DNA of 64,000 nucleotides. Origin: Branchiostoma lanceolatum. Taxonomy: Eukaryota > Chordata > Leptocardii > Amphioxiformes > Branchiostomatidae. A model generated the notes under the pieces. The model did no database searches and was not told the DNA's origin. It saw nothing but the letters and a program-made list of their open reading frames with translations. This document shows, one piece after another, positions 1-55,600 of the stretch. The stretch is taken from contig NC_089724.1 of assembly GCF_035083965.1 (NCBI RefSeq), positions 10,472,910 to 10,536,909 on the forward strand. Direction: 5' to 3'. Both the position numbers and the translations under genes were made by a program. Numbering within the stretch: the stretch's first letter is position 1; each line of letters opens with the position of its first letter.

Positions 1-2974
<2,974 letters not shown>

Positions 2975-3640
2975 ATTCGCTCTTCGTGCCAGAGATTACA
3001 AATTTTTACGCTTTTCAGACGCACTACTTGCTAGTGCTCCACTTCCGAATGCTTGAATGAACTATGATCGCAAGGTCCACCTGATTTACTATCGTGGTGT
3101 TAATTAGTAAACCATTTAGACTAGTAGGTAGACAAAGGTGTGAGATGCAGCAAATGTTTAAAGATGACTAGTTATTCATCTTCTTTTCTGATTAATCAAT
3201 CAACATCATTTACCCCCAAATAACCCCGCGAGGGGGAAAGTAGGGGGGGGGAGGTCCCAGGCTAAGGCGGGCAGGCCTCCAGCCTGGCGCGGAATGACTC
3301 AACTGTGGGAGCCGTAACAACAGCGCCAGGCAGGGCGTTCCACTCGGGGATGGCGCGGGGGAAGAATGAATTAATCATCAGAGATAAATCATAATCGAGG
3401 TGATTACACGTTATGGTTGTTCATGTTTCTATCTCTGTTGTCACTTTCTGCAAAGTTAACTAAGAAATGGAAGGAACAGGGAAAAAGTCAATAACATCGA
3501 TCGAAACACTTTTTCCTATGATTTAATTTCAAGACTAGATGTCTTTCTCTGCAGCTTTATACATCAGTTAATTAATAGCTAAATATCTATTTTGTATATT
3601 CTGCTGGCTACTGGTCCATGTTGTGTTTTCCCCTAGATCC
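2975..3640. other. Spacer between gene A start and gene B stop
   Basis: This holds the 5' flank of gene A (minus strand) and the 3' flank of gene B. It matches the gene C/D spacer at 16,111-16,596 except for one retrotransposon fragment at 3199-3369. No separate gene is visible. The cAMP-response-type palindrome found upstream of B and D is absent here. Confidence 0.5.
3199..3369 (-). mobile_element. 5'-truncated non-LTR retrotransposon fragment (ORF2 C-terminus)
   Basis: Read on the minus strand, the fragment encodes the end of a LINE ORF2 of CR1/L2/Jockey type. The typical signature SFFPRAIPEWNALP is followed by an APTVESFRARL-like tail and a stop. It is flanked by an 8-bp direct repeat ATTAATCA (3191-3198 and 3370-3377). 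The paralogous spacer near 16,325-16,340 has only one copy of this octamer and no insert, so the insertion followed the segmental duplication or was unique to this copy. Confidence 0.8.
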
Positions 3641-16110
<12,470 letters not shown>

Positions 16111-16596
16111 ATTCGCTCTTGGTGCCAAAGATTACAAACTTGTACGCTTCTCAGACGCACTACTTGCCAGTGCTCCACTTCCGAATGCTTGAATGAACTA
16201 TGATCGCAAGGTCCACCCCTGATTTACAATCGTGGTGTTAATTAGTAAGCCATTTAAACTAGTAGGTAAACAAAGGTGTGAGGTGCAGCAAATGTTTAAA
16301 GATGACTCGTTATTCATCTACTTTTCTGATTAATCATCAGAGACAAATCATAATCGAGGTGAATACACGTTATGATTGTTAATGTTTCTATCCCTGTTGT
16401 CACTTTCTACAAAGTTAACTAAGAAAAGGAAGGAACGGGGAAAAAGTCAACAACATCGATCGAAACAATTTTCCCTATGATTTAATTTCAAGACTAAATG
16501 TCTTTCTCGGCAGCTTTATACATCGGTTAATAGCTAAATATCTCTTCTGTATATTTTGCTGGCTACTGGTCCATGTGGTGTTTTCCCCCTAGATCC

Positions 16597-21128
<4,532 letters not shown>

Positions 21129-25130: not shown

Positions 25131-25393
25131 TATGTTGATATGATCATATGGATGACATCGTCTGGGGATAGCAAAGCTGATGCGAGCGTGCGAATGCCCA
25201 AAAAAAGTTTGGCAAAAAGAAAGGTGGCTTCATTATGAAATCTACATGGTCAGGAAGGGTAAACGAAACTAAACACACAGATTATGATATACCAAAATAT
25301 AGATTCTTCATCTACAGTATGGCTGAAAACGTTTTATTTTGGAAACGGACGAAAATTGATTCGCGCGCGCATGTCATCCATATCAACATGCCC
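25131..25393. mobile_element. MITE of the ATCCATATGATCAACATGGCC family
   Basis: Degenerate terminal inverted repeats: left GTTGATATGATCATATGGATG, right CATCCATATCAACATGCCC. The internal motifs CGGACGAAAATTGAT and GCGCGCGCATGTCATCC are shared with copies at 38,463-38,839, 39,246-39,622 and 48,714-48,787. It has no coding capacity. Confidence 0.6.
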
Positions 25394-25789
25394 TTTAAAG
25401 TTAGGTAAATGTGAACATCAGTATATATTATATGGGTTATGCAAGTTAGAACGTCATTATCATGATCAATGAAAAATTATACGCTTCCGACATACGGTGA
25501 CCGCCATATGATGAAGTGGATACAATCTGAGACCGTTGATTTGTATAAATCATGCTAATGACCTTATTTACATGATCAATTAATCATACAATACCTCAAT
25601 GGTACATAATAGGAAGTTCATTTGTGATATATGTGTGTTCGGTAGAGGTCAGCATCATTAGACATTGCAAACAAGGGAATCGTGATAAGTATATCGAAGT
25701 TATCATATTATGTTTATCATTATGATTACCTTTGTTTATATTTGTGCTCAGTTCATTCAATTAAGTTACAAAATTACATCCTCGTCATT

Positions 25790-26355: not shown

Positions 26356-32825
<6,470 letters not shown>

Positions 32826-34266
32826 GGATCTAGGGGAAAACACAACATGGACCAGTAGCCAGCAGAATATACTGCTCTGAGGAGAAAACACAATATCTAC
32901 CGTACCAATACAATAGCCAGCACTCCTGGATCTTCGACGGAGATGTTTTGCTATCGTGTGATCGTTCAGGTTTTACGAAACCCTATTGAACAAAACATTC
33001 CATATTTCACACCTTTTCCATCATTTCCGTTATCATGTTTCCGTTTCGATATGAATTCAGGCTAAAATTCATTAGAGGGGAGGGATACAATTACCAAATT
33101 GGATGCCCAGGAATTAGAGGCGTTAAACGATGTTATCATCCGTAGAGATCAATTAGGTCAACCTTTTCCCAGGCCCCATAGGCCGCTGGCAAAAGGGTAG
33201 AAATTGTTCAAATGGAGAGGAGCTATCTGACTTGTGAGTACAGTTTGCAATCTGGCATATGTTGTATCTGTCCATTTGGCCAATTTCTACCATTTTTCCG
33301 CCGATATGCCTGATAGAGGCTACCATTAGGTACTTGTATGTATATTGTAGTTGATAAACAGAGCAAATTGCAAAGGATGAGTTTGCCCGTTGGTCACGTG
33401 GCGTACCCGTCTTTTGTCAAGGCACCTGCATTTAGGTTTATTGGTTTATTGGTTTATTGGTAAAGGGTTAGGTACACTTGAATATAAACAAAATGTTATG
33501 TAATGTTTTGATATGTAGAATTCACCGTATTATTCAAGAGTGGCTGTGTTGAAAATGAAGACTATTTCTTTCAAACCCCGTCTTTTATCCCTGTTGAATC
33601 TAAACCACACCTACAATGGAAAATTCAGGAACTGGCAATAGACGATAAACGTGTTAAAGCAACAGAAGGCAGACTGTAAAGTGGTTCGTCTAAATTTCAT
33701 GTTGGATTTTATCTTTATTCGTGCAGGAAAAGGACAAAATTCATTTCCCTCGACTGGAGCGATGACCACAGATCCACCTGGTAGTGAAAATGAAACATAA
33801 ATAATGTTGAATTCAATCATAAAGTACTCTAATAGCAGTCTTATTACAAACAGCACTTTGAAAAATTCTTGTCATTGGTAGTATTTTCAAAGCTATTGTT
33901 AGAGCATCAATAATTTGGTTGAATATACAACGATCTTGTCTACTATCTGATGATAACATCATATAGTCCTTAATGATCTAAGGCGTATTTTAAGGTTAAG
34001 CATTGTGCGAACTGAATGAATTAGCGAATCCTTACACGAAACAAAGACAGTACAAGATTCCAGAAATGTTTTATCTCAACTACTAATCTATCGATAGAAT
34101 CATCATGACTCATGCACATGATCTGATGGTACATTTCTTGTAATACTAAGCTTTATGCTAATTCTAAGCTTTAGCAAGTCAACGAGAAAGAATCAAACTG
34201 CATAAATATTAGATACCCAGTAAGAAACCAAACGGCACTCACTTCGCATCGCTACAGAAGCCCTGC
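32826..34266. other. Spacer between gene E and gene G; left border of the G/H tandem duplication
   Basis: It contains three copies of GGTTTATT near 33,436-33,460. From about 33,365 onward the sequence repeats at about 37,632 (AAAGGATGAGTTTGCCCG versus AAAGATGAGCTTGCCCG, then AATATAAACAAAATG...). Between about 33,617 and 34,253 there is a block absent from the second copy, with no recognised content. Confidence 0.5.
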
Positions 34267-36503
34267 TTATGGGGCGACAGGATTGAGCTGGCCAATCAGG
34301 TCTTCCATCAGGGACTGACCTGTGGTCCATGTTCTAAAGATGTAAAAGATGATTATCATTTTCTACATTTTTTGCCATGACTGAATGATAACCATTATTA
34401 AACAGTCAAATGGCAAATCACAGACCCAGACAGACAACGTTAACATATCGACAAAAGCATATTCGTAATATTCCACATTTCGACATTTTTCTCTGAGCAA
34501 TTAATCAACAGTGATACTCCGTTTAAATGAGGAGAACTTCCTGCTGTGCTGAAACGCTAGATAGTTGTGCAGTAGCTCTTCTGGATTTGATTAAAGAATA
34601 TGGGTAAAAATCCATACTAATCTTTCTTACTGTCCAGTACAAGGATCGTAGCAGGTCCCAGGAATACTCATGGTGCAGACCACTTGGCCAGCACAGCCCA
34701 GGTCGGGGTTGACGTTGGGAAAGAGAGCCCTGGCCGCAGCCGCCATCTTCTCCGCACACACAAGGTCACATTCGACAGTGTTGCCGTCCTTGGTTTCCTT
34801 GGTGATAGGGTGCAGGAGGTCAGGGAGAAGCTCAGATCCAGTTGTCCAAGTCCTAAGAAAATTTGTGACTGTCAGTAATACTAGAAAGGCAACATTTATA
34901 AGCAAATCTTTTCCTCCTCGATGCAAAAGTAGACCGTTCCAGAATCACCACGGTACAAAAATGGAACATTCCAAAATAACTTCTGCCAAAAAGTGAACTA
35001 TTGCAAAGTCAACCAAGTCCAAGAAGGAGATTTCTCAATTCGACCCCCGTGCAAGAATAGACTCTTCGAGTGGCACGTCCCTGTAAAATGGACCAGTCCA
35101 AAATTACTACGGCTGAAACATGAACTATTCTAAGATCACCACAGTCAACGCTAGAGTCCCAATTTGACTCCCAATTCAACAATGAACTCTTCCAGAACTT
35201 GACCAGCTTTTCGTCTACATTGGCAAAGAAATCCAAATATATATCATTTCGAAGTATGACAGACTTGTCATTAAATCCCTGTCGGCATATCCCCAAGGCA
35301 CCCTTGTACCAAATATCAGGTAATTTGGTTGTAATACCAGAGCACAGGGGGCCAAAATTTATATTTTTGGTCTAAAAATGGCACAAAAAAACTCAATAAA
35401 ATCACCTTTAAACCATGTATCAAAAACGAAATACAATTTCATTCACCGCTATGTACACTTTTATGAATATAAAGAACGATAGTAGGATCAGGATCTCTCC
35501 TAAGTTGCCTTCACGCTTCTTGGGCGAGTAGCCTGTGTTTACACATTCTCTCGCTGGCGGAGATAAATGACCCCCTCTTAGGGGGCGGTAAGGCCGGCCG
35601 CTAGGAGCGCCATAAATTTAGTCAGGCCACTTGGGCGAGCTGCTGGAAGCGTAATTTAGTTAGGCTTGATGGTAAGCAAGCAAAATCAAAATTGATTTTA
35701 TTTCTCTTTTATGCAGTACCACATGAAAAGGAATTCGAGTGGAGGCCTTATGCAGATGATGTTATAAATAGGAGTAGATTTCCAACGAAGCATACATGTA
35801 CATACCCAATGCAGGGGTTGTAGCAGGTTCCGGGGATGCTCTGCGTGCATACCGTGTAACAGTCCGGCCCTATCAGCGGGTCGATGGAACCGGTACCGAG
35901 AAGGGCAAGAGTACCTGGGACGGCGGCGGAGTGTACGAGTGTAAACACGTGTTTTGAATCCAAGGTATGTTACTAAGTTAATATATATATATATATACCT
36001 AGTGTGTACGCAAGTTGCAGTGAACGCGTGAAGGGTTAGCGAAAGTTTATGACAAGTTTAATTGCAGGTACATGTAACATGAAAGGACGGACAGGACAGA
36101 AAATTGGTGAATTGACTCCATACATACAACCAACACGTTCGCTCCCAGTTTGGCTGTTCTGACCAATGCTTCCCTTAATGAAATTGCCTGTTAACTTGAG
36201 ACGATGCCCCTCTTCCAACACATTGTTAAATGACTATCCGTTGCGCAGAACTGTTTTCATTATATTATCATCCAACTGTGTCGTTCTGCGGGAAAGACTC
36301 AATCTTAGTTCTGATTCCCTAACTAGAAGAAAAGATGTTCGTTGAAATACACGTACCATTTCGAAGCATTTATAAATACGCAGAGTATCTTTCTGAATTC
36401 GAAACAACTTTGTGAGCTAGCTTTAGTACACACCTTTCATTTAGAAAACACCAGATGCATCCTTACCTTGCAGAAGTACCGAGAGAAGAAAGAAACGCCA
36501 CAT
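34267..36503 (-). CDS. Gene G: secreted cysteine-motif protein, 4 exons, 144 aa, unknown family
   Basis: Minus-strand exons: 36467-36503 (MWRFFLLSVLLQ), 35806-35914, 34631-34852 and 34267-34333, total 435 nt, ending TAA. The start codes for a clear signal peptide (MWRFFLLSVLLQGTLALLG), so the product should be secreted. The mature part has two copies of a cysteine motif, C-x3-C-x7-C-x3-C (DCYTVCTQSIPGTCYNPC) and C-x5-C-x7-C-x3-C (ending SIPGTCYDPC). Each is followed by a TWTTG stretch. Half of a further motif (ECDLVC) lies between them. All GT-AG junctions join in frame and the tandem copy H confirms the plan. I do not recognise the family. The even cysteine spacing suggests a small disulphide-stabilised extracellular protein; no function can be assigned. 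Confidence 0.75.
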
Positions 36504-37866
36504 CTTGGTTACTTTTCCTGGCATCCACAACTCAATGTATAACAGACTGGCGCTGAGGACTTTCGGCTCAAATAGTTACCGTTATCTTTTGTAGATCCTG
36601 TGACCGGTTGTATGACGCGTGTTTTTGACAGGTGTATGTTCGCATTGGCTACATCATCTCTATATCCGACTAATAACGTTATCACAGTGGACACATTTAT
36701 GTATGTTTTCTAAAAATGAGCCTTGGTCATACAAAAAGGTAAATCTTTAAATGATTAAATCATTAAAAGAAGTTTAAATCTGCTTACGACTGAATAGTTC
36801 AAATAGAAAACGTATTCACAGAAAAATGATATTTCGTGATGTATCTTCGAAGTGTTCCCTGACTTTTTATAGCAAATTTACTTTTAACAAACAAACATCG
36901 CCATTTGCTTTGGGTCACACGTTACTCTGTACATCAAAGGCCAAGCGACGGATGGTGAAGTCAACCATTTGTGACCTTAACGGAAAATAGCGAAGTGTTC
37001 GCCGCCATATGCATGTCAACACGGTGTTTGTACTCCCAGCTGACTACTTTTGTTGCTAGAAAATTAAAGTAGACATTGGTAAAAGTTTACTATATCTAGG
37101 GAGAGTAATTTACCACTCCGTGGTAGGTACTCTGTCCTTCTCTGATTGGCTAACTTCTGGTTGGCGAACTAGTACTGTTCACCTCATTTGGCTAATCTCT
37201 TCTTATTTTTTCAGGATATTAACTTGAACCTGCACTATTAGCAACATACGTATCACCTGGAAATTGTGGTCACTTTTTGTGGTCCCATTGATCCAAGTAT
37301 AAAGCGTCCTGTCTACAGTAGCCACCTAGTACCACGGGCAATAGTCACGGAAATTGCGATATATTTGAATGGCCGTTTCCTACCTATCGCTCGTCCCTAC
37401 GGGATTTGCGATCGTTGTACGGCATCCGTTCGTGCTTTCGGCATCACTTCGGTTTACGCTCGGAAACTTCAATTCGGGTTAAGCTCGGAAGCTCGGCCCC
37501 AGCTTATGCTAGTACCTGTCCACTGCAAACGTTGTATTTCTTTCGATTCCCTAGATTTCAAACGGTGGTCGTCACGTTAGAAAATAGCTATTTCAAGCAT
37601 CACATGTTCATCAACAAGCTGTACCAAGCAAAGGAAAGATGAGCTTGCCCGATGGTCACGCGAATGCGTAATCGTGTTTTTGTCAATGCGCTTGCTTTAA
37701 TGTACAATTAGAATATAAACAAAATGTAATGTAATGTTTTGATATGTAGAATTCACCGTATTATTCAAGAGTGGTTGTGTTGAAAATAAAAACTATTTCT
37801 TTCAAACTCCATCTTTCATTCATGTTGAATCTAAACCACATCTACAATAGAATACAGAAGTCCTGC
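36504..37866. other. Gene G 5' flank and gene H 3' flank
   Basis: The gene G upstream region (about 36,504-37,630) has a second copy upstream of gene H in two pieces (40,717-41,000 and 42,650-42,870). Shared landmarks are AAGCCAAGCGACGGAT, GACCTTGACGG and AAAATAGCTATTTCAA. The tandem junction falls at about 37,632. I see no extra gene, although some open frames exist around 37,270-37,640. Confidence 0.55.
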
Positions 37867-40716
37867 TTATGGGGCAACAGGATTCATTTGGCCAATCAGG
37901 TCTTCCAGGGACAGTCCTGTGGTCCAGGTTCTGGAGAAGTAAAAAACTAGCATTAATTTCTCCATTTTTTTTGCCATGCCTGAATGATAATCATTAAACA
38001 GTCAAATGATGAATCACATCAGGTCAGACAAACAACGTAAATGTATCGTCAAAACATTATACTTTTCCACTTTTCGAAATTTTTCTGTGAGCAATTAATC
38101 AATAGTTATTCTCCATTTCAATGAGGAATGCTTCTTGTTGTGCAGTAACACTAGATAGTTGTGGACTAGCTTCTGGCTTTGATTAAAAATATATGGATAA
38201 AAATCCATACTAAATTTTCTTACTGCCCAGTGCAAGGATCGTAGCAGGTCCCAGGAATACTCATGGTGCAGACCACTTGGCCAGCACAGCCCAGGTCGGG
38301 GTTGACGTTGGGAAAGAGAGCCCTGGCAGCTGCCGCCATCTTCTCCGCGCTGACGGTCTTCCGACGGAACTGACTGTTCGATCGCGATCCGTCAGCATGG
38401 AATGGGTCATTTGTTCTGTGACAAAAGTTAGAGTTTCTGATATTTGCTCTTCGAAGCTAAGGCCATGTTGGTTTGATCATATGGATGGCGCATCAATTTT
38501 CGTCCAAAAAAAGAGTTTTCTACCATACTGTAAATCGTGCAAAGCAGCTACAAAATGAGCAAATATATGCCGTAAATTTCAAAAAGATATTTCGGAAAAC
38601 GCATACTAATGTCTAGAATGCCAATCTCAAGGAAGAAGATGTGAAAGGCCAAAAATGCACTAGAGAGTATCCATTATTTGGTTTACCATTATCTGTGTGT
38701 TTAATCATTTGTTTAACCTTCCTGACCACGTAGGTTTCATAATGAAGGCATTTTTAAAAAATCTATTCGCATGCTCGCATCCGTTTTGGGGCTCCCAGGG
38801 GATGTCATCCACATATTAATCAAATCAACATGGCCTAACAGATAAAACGGACCAGCACCAATAGAAAGACGTACGTGCAAAACGCCACACACTTGATGGG
38901 ACAATTTGTTCGTAATTTCTGCTATCGATGGGCATTTTCAGACTTGACGGGAACTTGCTAAAAGACCGAAAATATGCAGTATTTTATCACCTACATTATG
39001 CTAGACCGGACCAACACTTTTTTGCATGCCTTACTCACGGGAGGAGGTGGTCGCACGAATCCCAGCAGATCCCTGGAAAGGCACATATGATGCCGCACTC
39101 CACAGTGTTGCCGTCCTTGGTGATAGGGTGCAGGAGGTCAGGGAGAAGATCAGATCCAGTTGTCCAAGTCCTAAGGAACATCAATATGATGTATTGCACA
39201 ACGAAGCTTACGACCATCATGCGGAATACAATTTCATTCATGTTTAGGCTGTGCTGCTTTGGATTATATGAATGACATCCACGCGCGCATCAATCTTCGT
39301 CCGATTAAAAATTTAGATTTCGACCATGCTGTAAATCGTACAAAGCAGCTGCAAAATGAGAAAATATATGCTGTAAATTATAAAAAAACGGAAAACGATA
39401 CTAACATCGTAGAATGACAAAGTCAATTCCAAGACCAAAGAAGATGTAAAGAAATGAAAATAAAGAATCTACCATTCGCTATACCATACTCTTTTTATTT
39501 GATAATTTGTTCAACCTTCCTGACCGCGTAGATTTCATGATGAAGGCAACTTATTCGCACGCTCGCATCAGTTTTGGGCTTCCCAGAGAATGTTATCCAT
39601 ATAATCAAATCAGCATGGCCTTATTATTATAAAGAAAGAGGTTACGATTAGGATCTCTCCTAAGAATGGAATAGTAAGTACAGATTGAAACACAAACCAG
39701 CCCGATAAGGTGCCTTCAATGTTCTTAAGCGAGCTACTGGAAGCATAATTTAGTCAGGCTAAATAGATCCATAGCTAGCAAAACCAAAATTATTCTGTTT
39801 TCTCTTTTACGCAGGTGAAAATGACTTCGAGACTCCTAATGCTGATCATGTTATAATCAGGAGTGAATTTCCAACGAAAAAATATAATGTCATGTACATA
39901 CGCAATGCAGGGGTTGTAGCAGGTTCCAGGGATACTTTACTAATTTAGTCCGGGTCGATGGATATATTGCAAGCAAGCAAACGTTTTTTTCTCTCTCTCT
40001 TTTATGTTGTGCCACATGAAAAGGAATTCTAGTGGATGACTGATGTAGATCATGCTATAAACAGGAGTAGATTTCCAACGAAGCATACATGTACATACCC
40101 AATGCAGGGGTTGTAGCAGGTTCCCGGGATACTCTGCGTGCATACCGTGTAACAGTCCGGCCCTATCAGCGGGTCGATGGAACCGGTACCGAGAAGGGCA
40201 AACGCACCTGAGAAAGCCAATGGCGAAGAGTACGGGTGTAAACATGCGTTTGCATCCAAAGCATGCTACGTACAGTTGTCCGAGTACAGTGTGAACGCAC
40301 GGTGTAGTGGACACGTGAATTGACCCCATACATACAGCCTACAACGGTTTGCTCCTGGTTAAGACACAGTTTATCTGTTCTGAGTCTTCTGGCCAATGCT
40401 TCTTGATGAAGATGACCTGTTACTTAAGCAGATACCCATATTCCAACGCATAAATGCCCATGCTGTACCTTTGCGCAGAACTGTTGTCAGTATATTGTTA
40501 TCCATCTATGTCGTTCTGCAGTAAAGACTCAATCTTATTTCTGCATGGTTCTCTTGAAATAAATGTCTATTTAAGTACACGTCCCATTAATTATTAACAC
40601 ATCTTTCATCTTTTTTTCTAATTTGTGAGCTAGAGTGAGTAAACGCCTTTCATTCAGAAAACACCAGATATATCCTTACCTTGCAGAAGTACCGAAAGAA
40701 GAAAGAAACACCGCAT
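37867..40716 (-). CDS. Gene H: secreted cysteine-motif protein, 5 exons, 177 aa, tandem copy of G
   Basis: Minus-strand exons: 40680-40716, 40099-40207, 39039-39170, 38224-38415 and 37867-37930, total 534 nt, TAA at 37,867-37,869. Signal peptide MRCFFLLSVLLQGAFALLG. The mature protein has three cysteine motifs: DCYTVCTQSIPGTCYNPC (identical to G), ECGIICAFPGICWDSC (C-x3-C-x5-C-x3-C), and GCAGQVVC...SIPGTCYDPC. They are separated by TWTTG-containing linkers, plus a polar linker (TNDPFHADGSRSNSQFRRK) absent from G. Introns 2 and 3 each hold a MITE. The exons join in frame, so the gene looks intact despite the insertions. The family is unknown to me. Confidence is a little lower for the third and fourth exons, whose borders rest on frame and splice signals alone. 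Confidence 0.7.
38463..38839. mobile_element. MITE in gene H intron 3
   Basis: The terminal inverted repeats are about 30 bp, beginning AAGGCCATGTTGGTTTGATC and ending with a matching AATCAAATCAACATGGCC. It is the same family as the copies at 25,131, 39,246 and 48,714. Internal landmarks are GCATCAATTTTCGTCC and TTCCTGACCACGTAGGTTTC. Confidence 0.75.
39246..39622. mobile_element. MITE in gene H intron 2
   Basis: A second copy in the same orientation as 38,463-38,839 and of nearly the same length. Its internal landmarks correspond (GCGCATCAATCTTCGTCC, TTCCTGACCGCGTAGATTTC, end AATCAAATCAGCATGGCC). The two copies are clearly diverged, so these are separate insertions or an old duplication. Confidence 0.75.
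39897..39960 (-). pseudogene. Decayed extra copy of exon 2 in gene H intron 2
   Basis: The complement contains GGAACCTGCTACAACCCCTG, matching the GTCYNPC-coding end of exon 2, but the donor region reads GCGTATG instead of GGTATG. The 5' half has an internal deletion with in-frame stops. It lies 150 bp downstream of the intact exon 2 and shares the flanking sequence, so it is a local exon duplication that died. Confidence 0.75.
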
Positions 40717-41559: not shown

Positions 41560-42650
41560 TTTATCTTTATAACTTTATTCAAAATATGCAGACTGGCAGG
41601 ATATCCTACTGGATATCCTGAATTGTTCTGACAGTAACAATTGTAGGTTCCACTAGTTATACAAAATACAGGTCACAGTTCAATTTGATCTAAAATGTCC
41701 TTGAACTATAAAATAATTGCAAGCTTGTGTGCGTTGCATCAAGAATAAACCGTCGGACAGGAATGACGAGTTTAAATAGCCATAAATATACATGTTAGGA
41801 CGATTTAAAGATCAATACAATTTAAAAACGATGGTTTTTACCACATTACACGTTTAAAAGTTCACGAAAGTGACTGGTTGTACAGTTTTGTGGCATGAAA
41901 CAGAAACGAGTTCTTCAGCCGTTCGGTCCTACAAGTAGGTAGAGTTCTATGGTTATGGTTTCTGAGAGTTCTGCCGGTTTGTTGTTGCCGACTGCTTGTT
42001 GTCATGTAGTGCAAGGGATGGTCTTCAGATTGCATCTGTTGAAAGAGTTTTAAGGCTGCTTCGTCACGTCTAGACTTGAGCGTTGGCAGGTGGGCTGTCG
42101 TCTGGATACCTCCATTCCCGTTGATAATCCTCGATGCTCTCTTCTGGACAGATTCGACTGTTTTTGACTGGGTTTTGTTACATCCGGCGTACACCACGTT
42201 AGCATATTCCAGAACGGATCTGATTAGGGTTGTGTACACTGTCGTGAGGTCGTCTGGGGGCATACCACCTTTAGCAAGTAAGCGAAGATAGTGGAGACGT
42301 TGTGATCCCTTTTTTGTCGCATGTGAAATATGGCTATCCCACTTAAGGTTAGAGGTCATCTTGAATCCGAGGTAGGTGGCGCATGTGACAATAGGTACTT
42401 CTTTCCCACCCAGTATGAGCGGTGGAAGGACTGGAGGTATTCTGGAGAAGCATATTCTGAGTTCGTACGACTTGTCGCCGTTCATGACCATGTTGTTCTG
42501 CGTTGCCCATGAGTCAAGGTGATCGGCTTCCTCCTGCATAGTATCGTCCGTTTCCGCGGTGACACAGGGCATGCATCTGGACAGTCCAATGTCGTCTGCG
42601 TATCCAATATTTGTAGTTGTTGCGTGATCTATAACAGTCATCAGTATAAA
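41560..42650 (-). mobile_element. 5'-truncated non-LTR retrotransposon, C-terminal half of reverse transcriptase
   Basis: An open frame at 41,862-42,641 (259 aa) encodes the reverse-transcriptase palm from its YADD active-site motif onward. The typical LINE tail follows (YLGFKMTSNLKWDSHI, then LIRSVLEYANVVYAG, QKRASRI). The 3' side ends with AATAAAG-type sequence near 41,570. The 5' half (endonuclease and N-terminal RT) is missing, as expected from incomplete reverse transcription. It belongs to the CR1/Jockey-like group by general appearance. Confidence 0.85.
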
Positions 42651-42880
42651 ACAATATTACCATTTGTTTTGAGTCACACCTTGCTGTACATCAAAAGCCA
42701 AGCGACGGATATTGTGAATTTGGCCATGGCCCTTTTTGACCTTGACGGAAGAAGTGTCCCTGGCCTAGAGTGAATGGCTATTATAGCCAGGGTTGGGGTT
42801 TTTTTCAAACGGCGCCGTCACGTTTGAAAATAGCTATTTCAAACATAACATGTTCATCGCAAGTAACACGCTCATATGTA

Positions 42881-46400: not shown

Positions 46401-49400
46401 TGTTATACGCGTGTTTTTCGCATAGCCTCCTTGGTCTTGCTAGTAGTCCAAGTTTTAGGAAAAGAGGTTGAAACGTGGACTACATGGAAGACGTACAAAA
46501 TTCCGTTAACACACTGAACTGGGCACTACGTCTGCTCGGAGCTTAGGAGGGACTGCTTGCTAGGAATTGTAATTTGTGAACAGATCGAGACCTCCCTTCG
46601 CACTCCTTCACTGAGCATGCCGGTATCGACGTGTATCCTAGCCCCCCCCCCCCCCCTTCCACTCCTTTGGTTGCCGAAGAAACGGTAGAACTTTGTTTTT
46701 GACAAAAGTATTGGGTGACTAATTAATTAATGGGGTAAGCCGGCAATGCAGTTACAGATTTGCAACCATTCTGCCGGTTATTCTATTGTATTCAAGTAAC
46801 TAAGTAAGTCTGGTGGAAAGTACCGCTACATTCCAACTACAGCCTATTCTAACCTCCTTGGGAAAGGCAAGGAAGACATTACACAACGTAGAAGGAATGG
46901 AGCTTAGCCCTCATTGGTGAATGCTTAGCCCTCATGAATGTTACATAGACGATTTCAAACTTATTAACCCCTAAAAGGCTAAACAATGTTTTTTCTGCTC
47001 TTGAATTTCAGGCCTCTAGTTCAAGATAATTGTCACAATAAACAGGCCTGTGACCAATGCGCTTTAAAGCTAGAGTTAAAAGTGTAGTATTTGCAATATC
47101 TGTCCTACCTAAGAAAAAGTAATACTTTCACAAAAGGCTACAAATTGCAAACTATCTTGTGATAACGTAGTTTGTTTTTACTAAGGCTTGCGTTGACTCA
47201 CTAGTACATGTACCTCTATCTTTGGCTCCAGTTTGATCTAGTCTGTGACCGGGCATGGCTGAGGGAGACTGCTCATGCCATCTTCATGCTGGGCTTCAGT
47301 TTTGGCGGGATGGTCTCAGGTGTTCTCTCAGACAGGTACGTTCGTTTTTCATCATCTACCCAGTCGTGAACAATTTATCGCCGTTAATTTTCTGACTGTG
47401 GCAATGTAAAAATGGCAGTGAATGAAATTCAATCAGAAAACAGTACGTACCCAGCAAGAGTTGCACGCTGGTATCCAAACCTATCATAGCTACCGAGTCT
47501 TTTTCGTCCTCTCAGCAAATAGAGGACAAAAGAGGCTCGGCAAATATGATAGATTTGCACGCCATGCTAAAGTTTGGTGAGTTGGGGTATTTGGATTTTA
47601 AAGCTCATTGCTTTTGAACTTGAACTTTATTGATACATCAGCTTGGCAGTCTCTCAGTCAGAGAGATTTAATTGCGCAGACCCACAGTTCGTCTTATACA
47701 CTGTATATACTTTTGACATGGCTGTCGTATTGTACCTAACGTCACGGCATGTAGTAACGATGTCATATACACCGAGGAGGGTCTCCTACCGTGAAGAACT
47801 CCAACGTGCAATTTTTGTATGTTAAAAGAGTTTCCGTTTTACTAGGTTCGGGCGCCGTCCGACCCTCTTGTGGTGCATTCTCCTCCAGCTCATCTTTGGA
47901 GTGGCCTCAGCTTTCTCTCACAACTACGTCGCCTTCGTCGTCATGAGATTCTTCCTGGGAGTCTTGAACGTCGGGATCTACTTTTCTGCCTTTGTGTTAG
48001 GTACTCCCTTCTGTAGCTGTAGCATATCTCAAATTGAACGGGTTTGTTTTGATGTTCTATAGACCTTTCTCACGCGGCGGACATGATAGAATGAAATCAA
48101 TCACAATTGGCCAGTTTAGCCAATGATTACCTGATAATTAGAGAATCGACCAATGAGGAAGTGGCTGCATGACCGACAAATATTTTCATTTCTATGTTTC
48201 TATTTTGCATTTCTACGTTTTGACGGAGAAGGGCGGGGACTATGGCATTCGGTCAACGAAGCTCTAAATTTCTGCATCTTTTTCGTGCACTACATTAGTT
48301 ATGATATTGATACTTGGATATCATATTCTAAAACCTTATGAGATTAAGGAGGAAAGCTAAATCTGTACATTATTTTGCTTCTTTGCCTCATTGGCCTCGT
48401 CTTTATTCTACTATGTCCGCCGCGTGAGAAAGGTGTATAATAGTTGTTTTAAGTATGTTCAAACACTTTCTTTGAGTATAAGGACAGTTACGTTATGGCT
48501 ATGATGTTTCTAAAGAAAACACTGTCTCCTAATACCTTGACAAACTCGAGCAGATAGCTGTTAGAGAAATTTCACCTGATTTCGATAGCTTACCAGTGCG
48601 AAAGTTGACATTGTAAAGAGTTTAAACGCTTTTCAGTATCCGATTTCCAAATTTTTTTTTGCAATTCACAGCATGTATTTTTATCATTTAGCAGCTGCTT
48701 TTTAACATCTACATTTTGGACGAAAACTTGGGGGAACGGACGAAAATTGATGCGCGCGCGTTTGTCATCCATATATCAACATGGCCTTACGGTCTCTTCC
48801 AACAGGTACAGAGATTCTGGACCAATCAAGGCGCACGATGTTCGGCCTGTCCATGGCGCTTTTCCTGGTACTGGGGTACATCGGCCTGGGCGTCGCGGCC
48901 TACCTCATCAGGGAGTGGTGGAAGCTGCAGCTGGCGATTTCTGCTCCCTTTGCAGTTTTCCTCAGTTACTGGTGGTGAGGACGTCATTTGTGGTTGTTAG
49001 CTTGCTTTCTTACGAGCAATTAGTACATGTCAAGAAGTAGGAAAGGCCGTTTCAAAAAAGAACTTTGAAATGAGTGGTCTTCATAACATTCGTATCTCAT
49101 ACCTTCGCCAAATGATTTGTTGCCATTCAAACTACTTATTCTAAAGGTTTCCCCTTTGATTATGCAAATAATGCCATCATTTGCATAAGACGTATTAGTT
49201 AATGACTTGCTGTACTACCAAATGACAAAAGTTGCCCAAGATATGAAAGTCTTATCTTAGCAAAGAAGGCTGTTGTAGCAATTTGTCATTGATTGGGCAA
49301 ATAAGGTCCTTATTTTCTTGATTTATATGTAATGATATTCATTACTTCAGAAAGAATAAATGACGTGATTTTTTGAATCTCCAGGTTAGCTCCAGAGTCG

Positions 49401-52613: not shown

Positions 52614-55600
52614 AGGACGGACGCAGCGTGTTATTAAACCTTTTCATCCGTATGACATCACTGCATATGAACATACAGTCAAACTCCCATTAATGCAACG
52701 TGTATCAGGTACACTCCGGTGAAAATCAGGAACATACATATTTGGCTTTTCGGGCCTTTGGATGCAATTTACTGTGTTTATTTTCTTAGACTGATTACTA
52801 TGGTCAATTGAAATACACGGTAAAGCATGATCATGATATGATCATATTATTATGCAAATATATACGATTGAAAGTACGATAAAAGGACCAAATGTTTGAA
52901 ATATTAGTGAATGATACAACGTGAATAAACTGTAACACATGCGTCAGTTGGGAGATGTTTGCTTTGCTCTTTCTACATTCTATACAAACCGACCACCATT
53001 TGACAGCATATCGTAGAAAACTGTGTCATGAATTGACGAACCACACGGACAGATGCACACAGCTTTGCAAAATAGTAGGTTTGAGAGATCTCTAGTGCAG
53101 CACCTCCCAGGTATGCAAAGTTTAGATATACAGGAGTTTATTTGTTTATTTGTTTATTCATTTATTCATTTGGCATGCATTGTATTTACAAACATGCCAG
53201 GGTTGCCCAACTAGCTTAAGCTATTACAAAGGGCAACCCTGGGAGAAAAACGTTATCATTACAAATAACATACATAATCATTTCATTAAGCACACATAGA
53301 AATCACTACCAAATTAATTAAGAGGTTGACATACGTATTTACAATTATATACACGAATTAACTATTTTAGACAGTGTAGAGTAAAACTTCTTACATTCTA
53401 TTGAAATACTTGCGTGTAATCATAATGTTAACAGCTAGTGTCGCATAGAAGTGTATACATATGTATATTAACTTAGACCAAGAACGGGTCTCCTAGGGAG
53501 GCCCAAGCTTTTCCTCTGAAGGAGGATACAGAGGTAGCTGTACGTGTTTCTGGTGGAAGCAAGTTCCAGAGTTTGGTAGCCCTGTGGAAGAACGCTTTCT
53601 GAGTCCTAACGCTTTTGGGAGTTTGCACAGAGAGGTTATTTCCATTTCGGAGGGGATATCTGGAGTCTATGGAAGATGATCTTGTTGTTGGTAGAAGACT
53701 GAGTAGGTGGGGTGGGCAGTGTCCGTTCATGAGTTTGAAGAGGGTGGTGACTGTGTGGAATTTACGGCGGAAGGTGAGTGAGGGAAGACATAGTTGGGAG
53801 TAGACGGTTCGGTAGGAAGGGTAAGGGATTCCACGGTGTCCACTTATCATTCTAGCTGATCGGTGCTGGACAGATTCAACTGATCTTGCATCGCGTGCGG
53901 TGAGGCCTGACCATACTATGTCAGCATATTCTAAAACTGGTCTTATTATGATCTTGTATAGCTGTAGTAGAATGTTCTTGGGCACCTTCTTCCGTAGAGC
54001 ACAGAGCATTCCAGCCGTTCGTCTTGCCTTGTTTGTTGTGGCTTCAGCGTGCAAAGACCATGTGAGCTTGCAGGTTAAGGTCACGCCCAGGTGTTTGTGG
54101 CTGTAAACAACCTGCAGAATAGTACCGGCTAGGATAACTGGGGGGATCCTTTGTGGAAGGGGACGGGTAGTGAGAAACATAACTTTGCATTTGTCTCCGT
54201 TGGCCTCGAGTTTCCAGCTTTGTAGCCAGTCTGATACAGTGGCAAGGTCTTTGTTCAGTGAGTCTACAACAGTATTGATAGAACGGTGAGCTGCTGTGAG
54301 TGAGGTATCATCTGCGAACAAGTTCGCCACACAGGTTGTACATCTGGAGGGCAGATCGTTTATGTATAAAATGAAAAGTGTAGGTCCTAAAACAGAGCCC
54401 TGTGGGACTCCAGCAAGGGGGGTCTTCCAGTCAGATGTTGCGCCATTGACAACCACTCGTTGACGTCGTTCTGTAAGGTAACTCTGGAACCACTCAAGAA
54501 CCCGTCCACGAATTCCGTATCCTTCCAGTTTGGCTAAGAGGCCGTTGTACCAGACTTTATCAAAAGCCTTTCGTAGGTCCAAGAATACGCAGCCAACCAC
54601 CTCTCCTTTGTCAATGGCTTTGGTCCACTCGTCAACAAGTCGGACCAGTTGAAGAGTTGTGTTGTCCTGCGCTCGAAATCCACTTTGATACTGTGTCAGC
54701 ATTGGACGAATGTGTTCCATTAGGCGTTTGATATACAGGAGTGCATCATACTGGGGGATTTCGGGGTTGAGATCTGTTTGGACGTCTCTTTTCAGGGTGG
54801 CGGGATTATGTACCCGGGGTGAATTATGTTAACCTTAAAAGACTCTTGAAATGACCGAAAAGAACGATATACCAGATTTTACTCTATTATGTATTTTGTA
54901 CCATGTGTGTGCAATGATATATTTTTATAGATTTGTTACAAAAAACAAACCTTGAAACTGACATATTTCTTTAACATTACGGCCAGTTGGGGGCATATTG
55001 GCGTCTAATGGCACCAATCATGGAGCCAATATTAGGGTCTTAAGTTCGCAGCTAGATCGCGGCATTTTACCTCTTTAACGTTGTTTTTATCGCAATTTCA
55101 AGCGACACACTGGCGGCGATAGGGCGACAAGCTGGCGTTTGTGCACGGCACGTTGGCGGTAGCCATTGGCAAGCTGCCGCCAACGTGCCGCCGTCCGGTG
55201 AGATCTGGGCTTTACATAATGGAGAGAAATCAAATAAATATTTAGTTTTCCTGGCACGGTTTGTCGAATGTAAACACCTCCTCCTCAATATTCACCGTTG
55301 AGCGATATAAAATGCTCCACTTGGACCTTGCACTCATCTTTCTCACTTCACGTCTAAAATTGGTTAAACTTGGCATATTTTCAGAAACGAGTGTTATCAA
55401 GGTTAGTTGGGAAGCCTCATGATTTAACGTAATTGGTAATCCGCTCAGAGAATTTAACATAATCCTCAATCGGCGGAGAAAATGTTGCGTAATTCGTAAT
55501 CACTACCACTCCCACCCCCATGCAGGCCCTCAGGTAGCCCTCAGGTATATACAGTAGGCGCACCTGCTGTTTTCGCGGTCCGGTGAACTCATGACCTCAG

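Follow-up and report, generated by a model that had tools for sequence, protein, structure and literature searches.

In a 64,000-nucleotide stretch of Branchiostoma lanceolatum DNA (contig NC_089724.1, positions 10,472,910 to 10,536,909 of the forward strand; hereafter the window), two small tandem genes, here called G and H, may code for secreted, modular, double-headed serine protease inhibitors of the canonical (standard-mechanism) type that would be convergent with the plant Bowman-Birk inhibitors, a reading of their sequences for which we see about even chances. Each gene product contains two cysteine units built around a nine-residue ring, CTQSIPGTC in unit 1 and CTMSIPGTC in unit 3, with Thr at P2, Ser at P1', Ile at P2' and Pro at P3'. 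According to excerpts of PMC7760496, the plant Bowman-Birk loop has the formula CTP1SXPPXC (9 residues) and the frog loop CWTP1SXPPXPC (11 residues). All fixed positions of the plant formula are found in units 1 and 3, except for P4', where Gly stands for Pro. The initial annotation of this locus had guessed at an immune effector, a digestive or a signalling peptide; because the loop fits the canonical reactive loop of Bowman-Birk inhibitors, this guess can be narrowed to a protease inhibitor as the best reading.

When the mature G sequence was shuffled with its cysteines kept in place, the pattern CT.S.P..C arose in 248 and the stricter CT.SIP..C in 25 of 200,000 sequences, in a motif test framed after the match had been seen. 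Judged at the level of sequence, the loop pattern appears to be stronger evidence than the database search scores given below. Comparing the nine loop codons of units 1 and 3 within G, we found five silent differences and a single replacement, which is that of P1 (CAG to ATG); within H the same P1 replacement is accompanied by four silent differences. Extended to 13 codons, the comparison of the two G units gave 11 nucleotide changes with 2 replacements, where 6.9 would be expected, and only 3 of 20,000 simulations were as low. Since P1 chiefly governs the interaction with the protease in the standard mechanism (section 3 of PMC7760496, in excerpt), a fixed loop with a changing P1 fits a canonical inhibitor, and the P1-only replacement within the loop, suggestive of such a function, is the most telling result of the analysis. 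The deviating Gly at P4' may be tolerable, as monocyclic sunflower trypsin inhibitor 1 (SFTI-1) with P4' Pro replaced by Ala still inhibits trypsin at 0.0017 nM and thus does not need that Pro (Table 2 of PMC7760496, in excerpt).

The genes lie head to tail on the minus strand, H (40716-37867) followed by G (36503-34267), and comprise the following exons, together with one dead exon copy.

36467..36503, minus strand: G exon 1, ATG with MWRFFLLSVLLQ, which resembles a signal peptide and, judged by eye, is probably cleaved after ..GTLA; donor gtaaggat in phase 1.
35806..35914, minus strand: G exon 2, unit 1, CYTVCTQSIPGTCYNPC, loop CTQSIPGTC with Gln as P1.
34631..34852, minus strand: G exon 3, TWTTG linker, spare cysteine pair ECDLVC and unit 3 CAGQVVCTMSIPGTCYDPC, loop CTMSIPGTC with Met as P1; equivalent to H exons 3 and 4 joined.
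34267..34333, minus strand: G exon 4, TWTTGQSLMEDLIGQLNPVAP and stop.
40680..40716, minus strand: H exon 1, ATG with MRCFFLLSVLLQ, which resembles a signal peptide and, judged by eye, is probably cleaved after ..GAFA.
40099..40207, minus strand: H exon 2, unit 1, loop CTQSIPGTC, the same as in G.
39039..39170, minus strand: H exon 3, TWTTG linker and unit 2, CGIICAFPGICWDSC, short loop CAFPGIC without an equivalent of the P1-P1' site.
38224..38415, minus strand: H exon 4, TNDPF... linker with the basic stretch FRRK and unit 3 CAGQVVCTMSIPGTCYDPC, loop CTMSIPGTC.
37867..37930, minus strand: H exon 5, TWTTGLSLEDLIGQMNPVAP and stop.
39793..39936 (open stretch), minus strand: incomplete, dead exon 2 copy (SIPGTCYNPCIA) within H intron 2, with two in-frame stops just upstream and without the first two cysteines.

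G codes for 144 amino acids in four exons and H for 177 in five, position 34267 being the final base of the G stop codon and 40716 the initial base of the H ATG. All introns are of the GT-AG type, the reading frames are open through to the stop, and the first intron is in phase 1 and every later one in phase 2 (exon-end phases 1,2,2 in G and 1,2,2,2 in H). Both proteins begin with a short hydrophobic stretch, ending GTLA in G and GAFA in H, which by eye resembles a signal peptide. On sequence comparison, G and H are a tandem duplication of one another; in blastn about half of the 3.3-kb G region aligns to the H region, in pieces of 70-91% identity. Over the 140 alignable codons, all of which were used, the genes differ by 28 nucleotides and 10 amino acids. 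Placing the 28 changes at random gave 19.6 +/- 2.3 expected amino-acid changes and in none of 5000 simulations as few as 10, so the genes are not a product of chance; the Nei-Gojobori (NG86) estimates are 0.036 for nonsynonymous (dN) and 0.184 for synonymous (dS) divergence. G and H are under purifying selection. The two tandem genes and their exon chains were thus correctly drawn in the initial annotation, to the exact coordinates, as the GT-AG introns, matching phases, intact frames and purifying selection all agree. The fast evolution that it suspected does not hold for the sequence, given the low dN against dS, whereas exon content and copy number do change. It is very improbable that G and H are dead or dying tandem copies making no protein. 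The dead exon copy, the insertions resembling miniature inverted-repeat transposable elements (MITEs) in H introns 2 and 3 and the fused exon in G would suit such decay, but the selection estimates, the simulations and the intact splice sites and frames speak against it.

The cysteine units are of three types. Unit 1, in exon 2 of both genes, reads CYTVC-TQSIPGT-CYNPC, unit 3, in G exon 3 and H exon 4, reads CAGQVVC-TMSIPGT-CYDPC, and unit 2, in exon 3 of H only, reads CGIIC-AFPGI-CWDSC, with a seven-residue ring from which the plant loop formula is absent. The general motif C-x3-C-x(5-7)-C-x3-C previously assigned to them describes exon 2 of G and H (x7) and H exon 3 (x5), while G exon 3 and H exon 4 have C-x5-C-x7-C-x3-C; similarly, the PGTCY[ND]PC core is present in four of the five living copies, with PGICWDSC in H exon 3. 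Within the window TWTTG is found at four places, each the start of an exon (exons 3 and 4 in G, exons 3 and 5 in H), as had been claimed for the linkers, with the exception of H exon 4, which opens with TNDPF. One motif per exon is the rule in H exons 2-4; G exon 3, in which ECDLVC adds a further cysteine pair, has the appearance of a fusion of H exons 3 and 4. Its start resembles H exon 3 (TWTTGSELLPDLLHPITK...DGNTVEC) and its end H exon 4 (AEKMAAAARALF...), and it is without the FPGICWDSC half-unit of H, the intron and most of the TNDPF stretch. On the simplest reading, a deletion in G joined the two exons that are separate in H, the reverse being also possible; the deletion is favoured because H unit 2 is a full four-cysteine relative of the other units. 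The dead exon duplicate, too, is real: the partial exon 2 copy has lost its first two cysteines and is preceded by the two in-frame stops. A profile of the three unit types, run against 2867 six-frame peptides of the window, found six places at E <= 1.3e-6, all within G and H (the five living units and the dead copy), with the next at E 0.88; as the profile was built from these very units it matches them by construction, and what is informative is the lack of any further match in the window.

For G and for unit 3, database searches pointed in the same direction as the loop. The best Pfam match of the whole G protein was Bowman-Birk (PF00228; E 0.045, 14.5 bits; for mature G E 0.033, 14.9 bits), and unit 3, which was picked as the query after the Pfam lead was known, found its best PDB match in 2r33, a Bowman-Birk inhibitor, at E 0.24 and via VCTKSIPPQC and CTFSIPGSC. 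As a like-for-like control, 20 cysteine-fixed shuffles of mature G yielded no Bowman-Birk match and six Pfam families once each (best E 0.18). No Bowman-Birk match was obtained with 60 cysteine-fixed shuffles of single units, out of 80 generated, either. The Bowman-Birk score of G appears to beat chance in the small whole-protein control, yet it is weak.

A series of results, along with the post hoc framing of the shuffle test, weighs against an inhibitor. The PF00228 cut-off of 20.4 bits lies above the scores of G (14.5), H (11) and mature G (14.9); the top Pfam match of H was Lipoprotein_15 (E 0.5), with Bowman-Birk only second (E 0.57); units 1, 2 and 3 taken singly had no Pfam match; unit 1 alone and a two-unit profile had no match in PDB, where whole H found only inositol-3-phosphate synthase (E 0.45). 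Moreover, the 60 single-unit shuffles matched nine unrelated Pfam families once each at E 0.018 to 1.1 (best 0.018, 0.047 and 0.057). As for the loop and its surroundings, P4' is Gly, the plant scaffold's C-x-C flanks have no counterpart, P1 Gln is outside the usual Bowman-Birk P1 residues (section 4.1 of PMC7760496, in excerpt), and H unit 2 has no P1-P1' site. SFTI-1 with Ala at P3' is still active (0.035 nM for trypsin; PMC7760496, Table 2, in excerpt), so that even the P3' Pro can be dispensed with in SFTI-1 and not every conserved residue of the loop is required for inhibition. The P1 argument, too, rests on one independent change. Furthermore, the AlphaFold models are poor, with a mean pLDDT of 38 for G exon 3, where a helix is placed at residues 26-43 (pLDDT < 50) outside the unit 3 loop, and of 59 for H unit 1 (about 70 over residues 21-35), and Foldseek with the unit 1 model gave no PDB match.

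A possible though doubtful alternative is that G and H are lineage-specific modular disulphide-rich secreted peptides with an antimicrobial, mucus-structural or signalling role, in which the PGTCY-x-PC turn is a structural core and the likeness to Bowman-Birk loops is coincidental. No inhibitor family exceeds its cut-off, no PDB match of unit 1, whole H or the two-unit profile goes beyond chance, and the single-unit shuffles reach similar Pfam E-values. In addition, frog peptides with Bowman-Birk-like loops are also reported to be antimicrobial (section 5.8 of PMC7760496, in excerpt), and the basic stretch FRRK of H could be cut by a processing enzyme. Coincidence would, on the other hand, leave it to luck that G and unit 3 share one inhibitor family as best match, with none of the 20 whole-protein shuffles coming near, and that the sole replacement within the loop sits at P1. 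Mature G and mature H are also acidic (4 Lys and Arg against 13 Asp and Glu in G, 7 against 15 in H), unlike typical cationic antimicrobial peptides.

The model of H unit 1, when assigned by DSSP, has strand or bridge at Y19, V21-C22 and C30-Y31 and no helix. As weak evidence of moderate model confidence at most, it is compatible with a hairpin closed by C22-C30 and unfavourable to an alpha-hairpinin. Alpha-hairpinins have a helix-loop-helix fold with two disulphides, as in modular defence peptides of plants, and some of them are trypsin inhibitors. They resemble G and H in their modular precursors, for which a varying number of modules is on record, and, for two of the three types of unit, in the 4C spacing CX3CX4-20CX3C (excerpts of PMC11591084), to which unit 1 and unit 2 of H conform. 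We nevertheless find it improbable that the units are modules of this kind. Unit 3 of both genes starts with CX5C and falls outside the spacing, the PG ahead of the third cysteine and the Pro in the last CX3C are ill-suited to helices, and the weakly modelled helix of G exon 3 does not cover the unit 3 loop, the likewise weak unit 1 model having none.

As canonical-inhibitor candidates, G and H can be compared with three known systems that bear such a loop. The Bowman-Birk scaffold has C-x-C flanks on either side of its loop, as can be seen for loop 1 in the alignment with 2r33. The plant inhibitors (PF00228; MEROPS I12), for example BTCI of black-eyed pea (2r33), share with G and H the nine-residue loop bounded by cysteines, Thr at P2, Ser at P1', Pro at P3' and two heads per molecule, and loop 2 of 2r33, CTFSIPGSC, also has the Ile-Pro-Gly of units 1 and 3. 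In G and H, however, the outer cysteines are four or six residues away from the loop, in the form C-x3-C or C-x5-C ahead of it and C-x3-C behind it, the linkers are long, each head has an exon of its own and P1 is Gln or Met. With a score under the cut-off and different flanking cysteines, G and H are, by sequence, not members of the Bowman-Birk family. SFTI-1 (CTKSIPPIC) is identical to CT[Q/M]SIPGTC at six of nine loop positions, shares with G and H an aromatic residue after the last cysteine (Phe or Tyr) and likewise bears the loop without the Bowman-Birk scaffold; it differs as a backbone-cyclic peptide of 14 residues with one disulphide and Lys at P1. The frog-skin Bowman-Birk-like peptides (MEROPS I99) are also of animal origin and carry T-P1-S-x-P inside a disulphide ring, but the ring is one of 11 residues (CWTP1SXPPXPC), the peptides are 16-20 residues long and P1 is Lys in almost all of them (excerpts of PMC7760496). 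The sequences of G and H, with a nine-residue ring, no Trp after the first cysteine and no Pro before the last, are not of the frog type. True homology with the plant inhibitors, through very old descent or horizontal transfer, is extremely unlikely. The loop does resemble those of 2r33 and SFTI-1, yet the C-x-C flanks are absent, at least 19 canonical families are convergent, and SFTI-1 and the frog peptides arose independently of the plant Bowman-Birk inhibitors (excerpts of PMC7760496). We class G and H as a new and probably convergent family that is canonical-inhibitor-like in sequence.

If the genes do encode inhibitors, the signal-peptide-like exon 1 would direct secretion, and each product would present two C-T-P1-S-I-P-G-T-C heads, one (unit 1) with Gln and the other (unit 3) with Met at P1. 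The linkers between the units, most of which open with TWTTG, lie on exons joined in phase 2. The inner cysteine pair of each unit would close the loop and the outer pair would bond behind it, giving a two-disulphide beta-hairpin. This hairpin would offer the P1-Ser bond to the protease, and very slow cleavage and religation would leave the enzyme blocked. The middle unit of H, with its ring two residues shorter, would probably be a structural or altered head rather than a canonical one. The usual P1 residues are Lys or Arg for trypsin and Phe, Tyr, Leu or Trp for chymotrypsin (section 4.1 of PMC7760496, in excerpt). Excerpts of PMC10004685 state that two silkworm TIL inhibitors acted more strongly on subtilisin and elastase with Gln at P1, and that the Streptomyces subtilisin inhibitor has P1 Met and was reported to be very strong against subtilisin as a P1 Gln mutant. 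By analogy, P1 Gln and Met may point to elastase- or subtilisin-like targets rather than to trypsin, and a likely role would be the blocking, at a secreting surface, of elastase-type proteases that come from microbes or from the animal itself.

With a confidence somewhat short of even, we propose that, in addition to SFTI-1 and the frog peptides, the Bowman-Birk loop arose separately once more outside the plant scaffold, in an animal family that bears it on a two-disulphide hairpin encoded by exons joined in phase 2. The hairpin would have been duplicated both inside genes and from gene to gene, P1 being the sole loop change between units 1 and 3, with targets of the elastase or subtilisin type in place of trypsin. 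If this is true, the function of an unnamed animal gene family would become open to a concrete and cheap test, and the case for repeated convergence would be strengthened, as nearly identical nine residues would have arisen on unrelated scaffolds in legumes, sunflower, frogs and the present genes. Heads of exon size that differ at P1 would moreover illustrate how a multi-headed inhibitor gains targets through exon copying, and the hairpin might offer a new two-disulphide scaffold for inhibitors of elastase or subtilisin.

The newness of the family refers to Pfam, PDB, viral and prokaryote contigs and paper text; eukaryote proteomes, the likely home of relatives, lie outside that scope. As far as this reaches, the description as a new-looking family of small secreted modular cysteine proteins stands, with Pfam scores below the cut-off and no viral or prokaryote relative, and so does its remark that no family was recognised, no Pfam family reaching its cut-off for G, H or the single units. 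An alignment of exon 3 gave 22 pattern matches in viral contigs and one of unit 1 gave 20 in prokaryote genome contigs, none of which was confirmed. In full-text literature the loop letters occurred in no paper and Bowman-Birk together with amphioxus in none; PMC5691223, in excerpt, mentions Branchiostoma and Bowman-Birk in unconnected places. Among the other matches, those to Lipoprotein_15 in Pfam (E 0.5 to 1.1; first for H) and to envelope glycoprotein gp160/gp140 chains in PDB (E 0.56 and 8.8, around GCAGQVVCT) were taken as chance, and that of H to inositol-3-phosphate synthase (E 0.45) was set aside. A warning on false calls comes from a Dumpy-like silkworm protein of unclear function, in which, interspersed with EGF and other modules, at least 11 domains bear the label "Bowman-Birk" (excerpts of PMC3278429).

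A MITE-like repeat, at most about 380 bases long, is present in H introns 2 and 3 (39266-39623 and 38458-38836, respectively), with partial copies at 25132-25395 and 48635-48789; its ends are inverted over 29 bases, the start of one copy against the end of another. An internal duplication in H involving exons 3 and 4 was rejected as the explanation for the similar introns (38488-38836 against 39285-39621, 74%), because the segments are copies of this repeat, found in part also at 25132-25395 and 48635-48789 and with inverted ends. Downstream of G, about 630 bases (33622-34252) match nothing else in the window; as the duplicated flank downstream of H is continuous, the likely cause is either an insertion at G or a deletion at H.

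Elsewhere in the window, a direct segmental duplication of about 7 kb (241-7288 and 13357-20110, pieces 93-95% identical) carries zinc-binding dehydrogenase exons (Pfam, first copy) that resemble prostaglandin reductase 1. Inverted copies of about 870 bases lie at 29501-30358 and 30977-31848 (94% identical, about 620 bases between them), and tandem arrays at 12292-12457 and 9909-10263 consist of a 41-base unit (TGTATGCAGTGCAAATTTTTGCACTGC...) and a 128-base unit, respectively. Two open frames on the minus strand look like retroelement remains, one at 53473-54828 with a reverse-transcriptase domain (RVT_1, E 1.1e-28) and one at 41862-42656 with ALKBH8_N only (E 1.4e-5), a domain common in the tails of retroelement frames. 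In a Pfam scan of ten neighbouring open frames, seven had matches (zinc-binding dehydrogenase parts, major facilitator superfamily (MFS) and sugar transporters, reverse transcriptase and ALKBH8_N) and three had none; together with the introns, these frames would fit an animal origin of the DNA.

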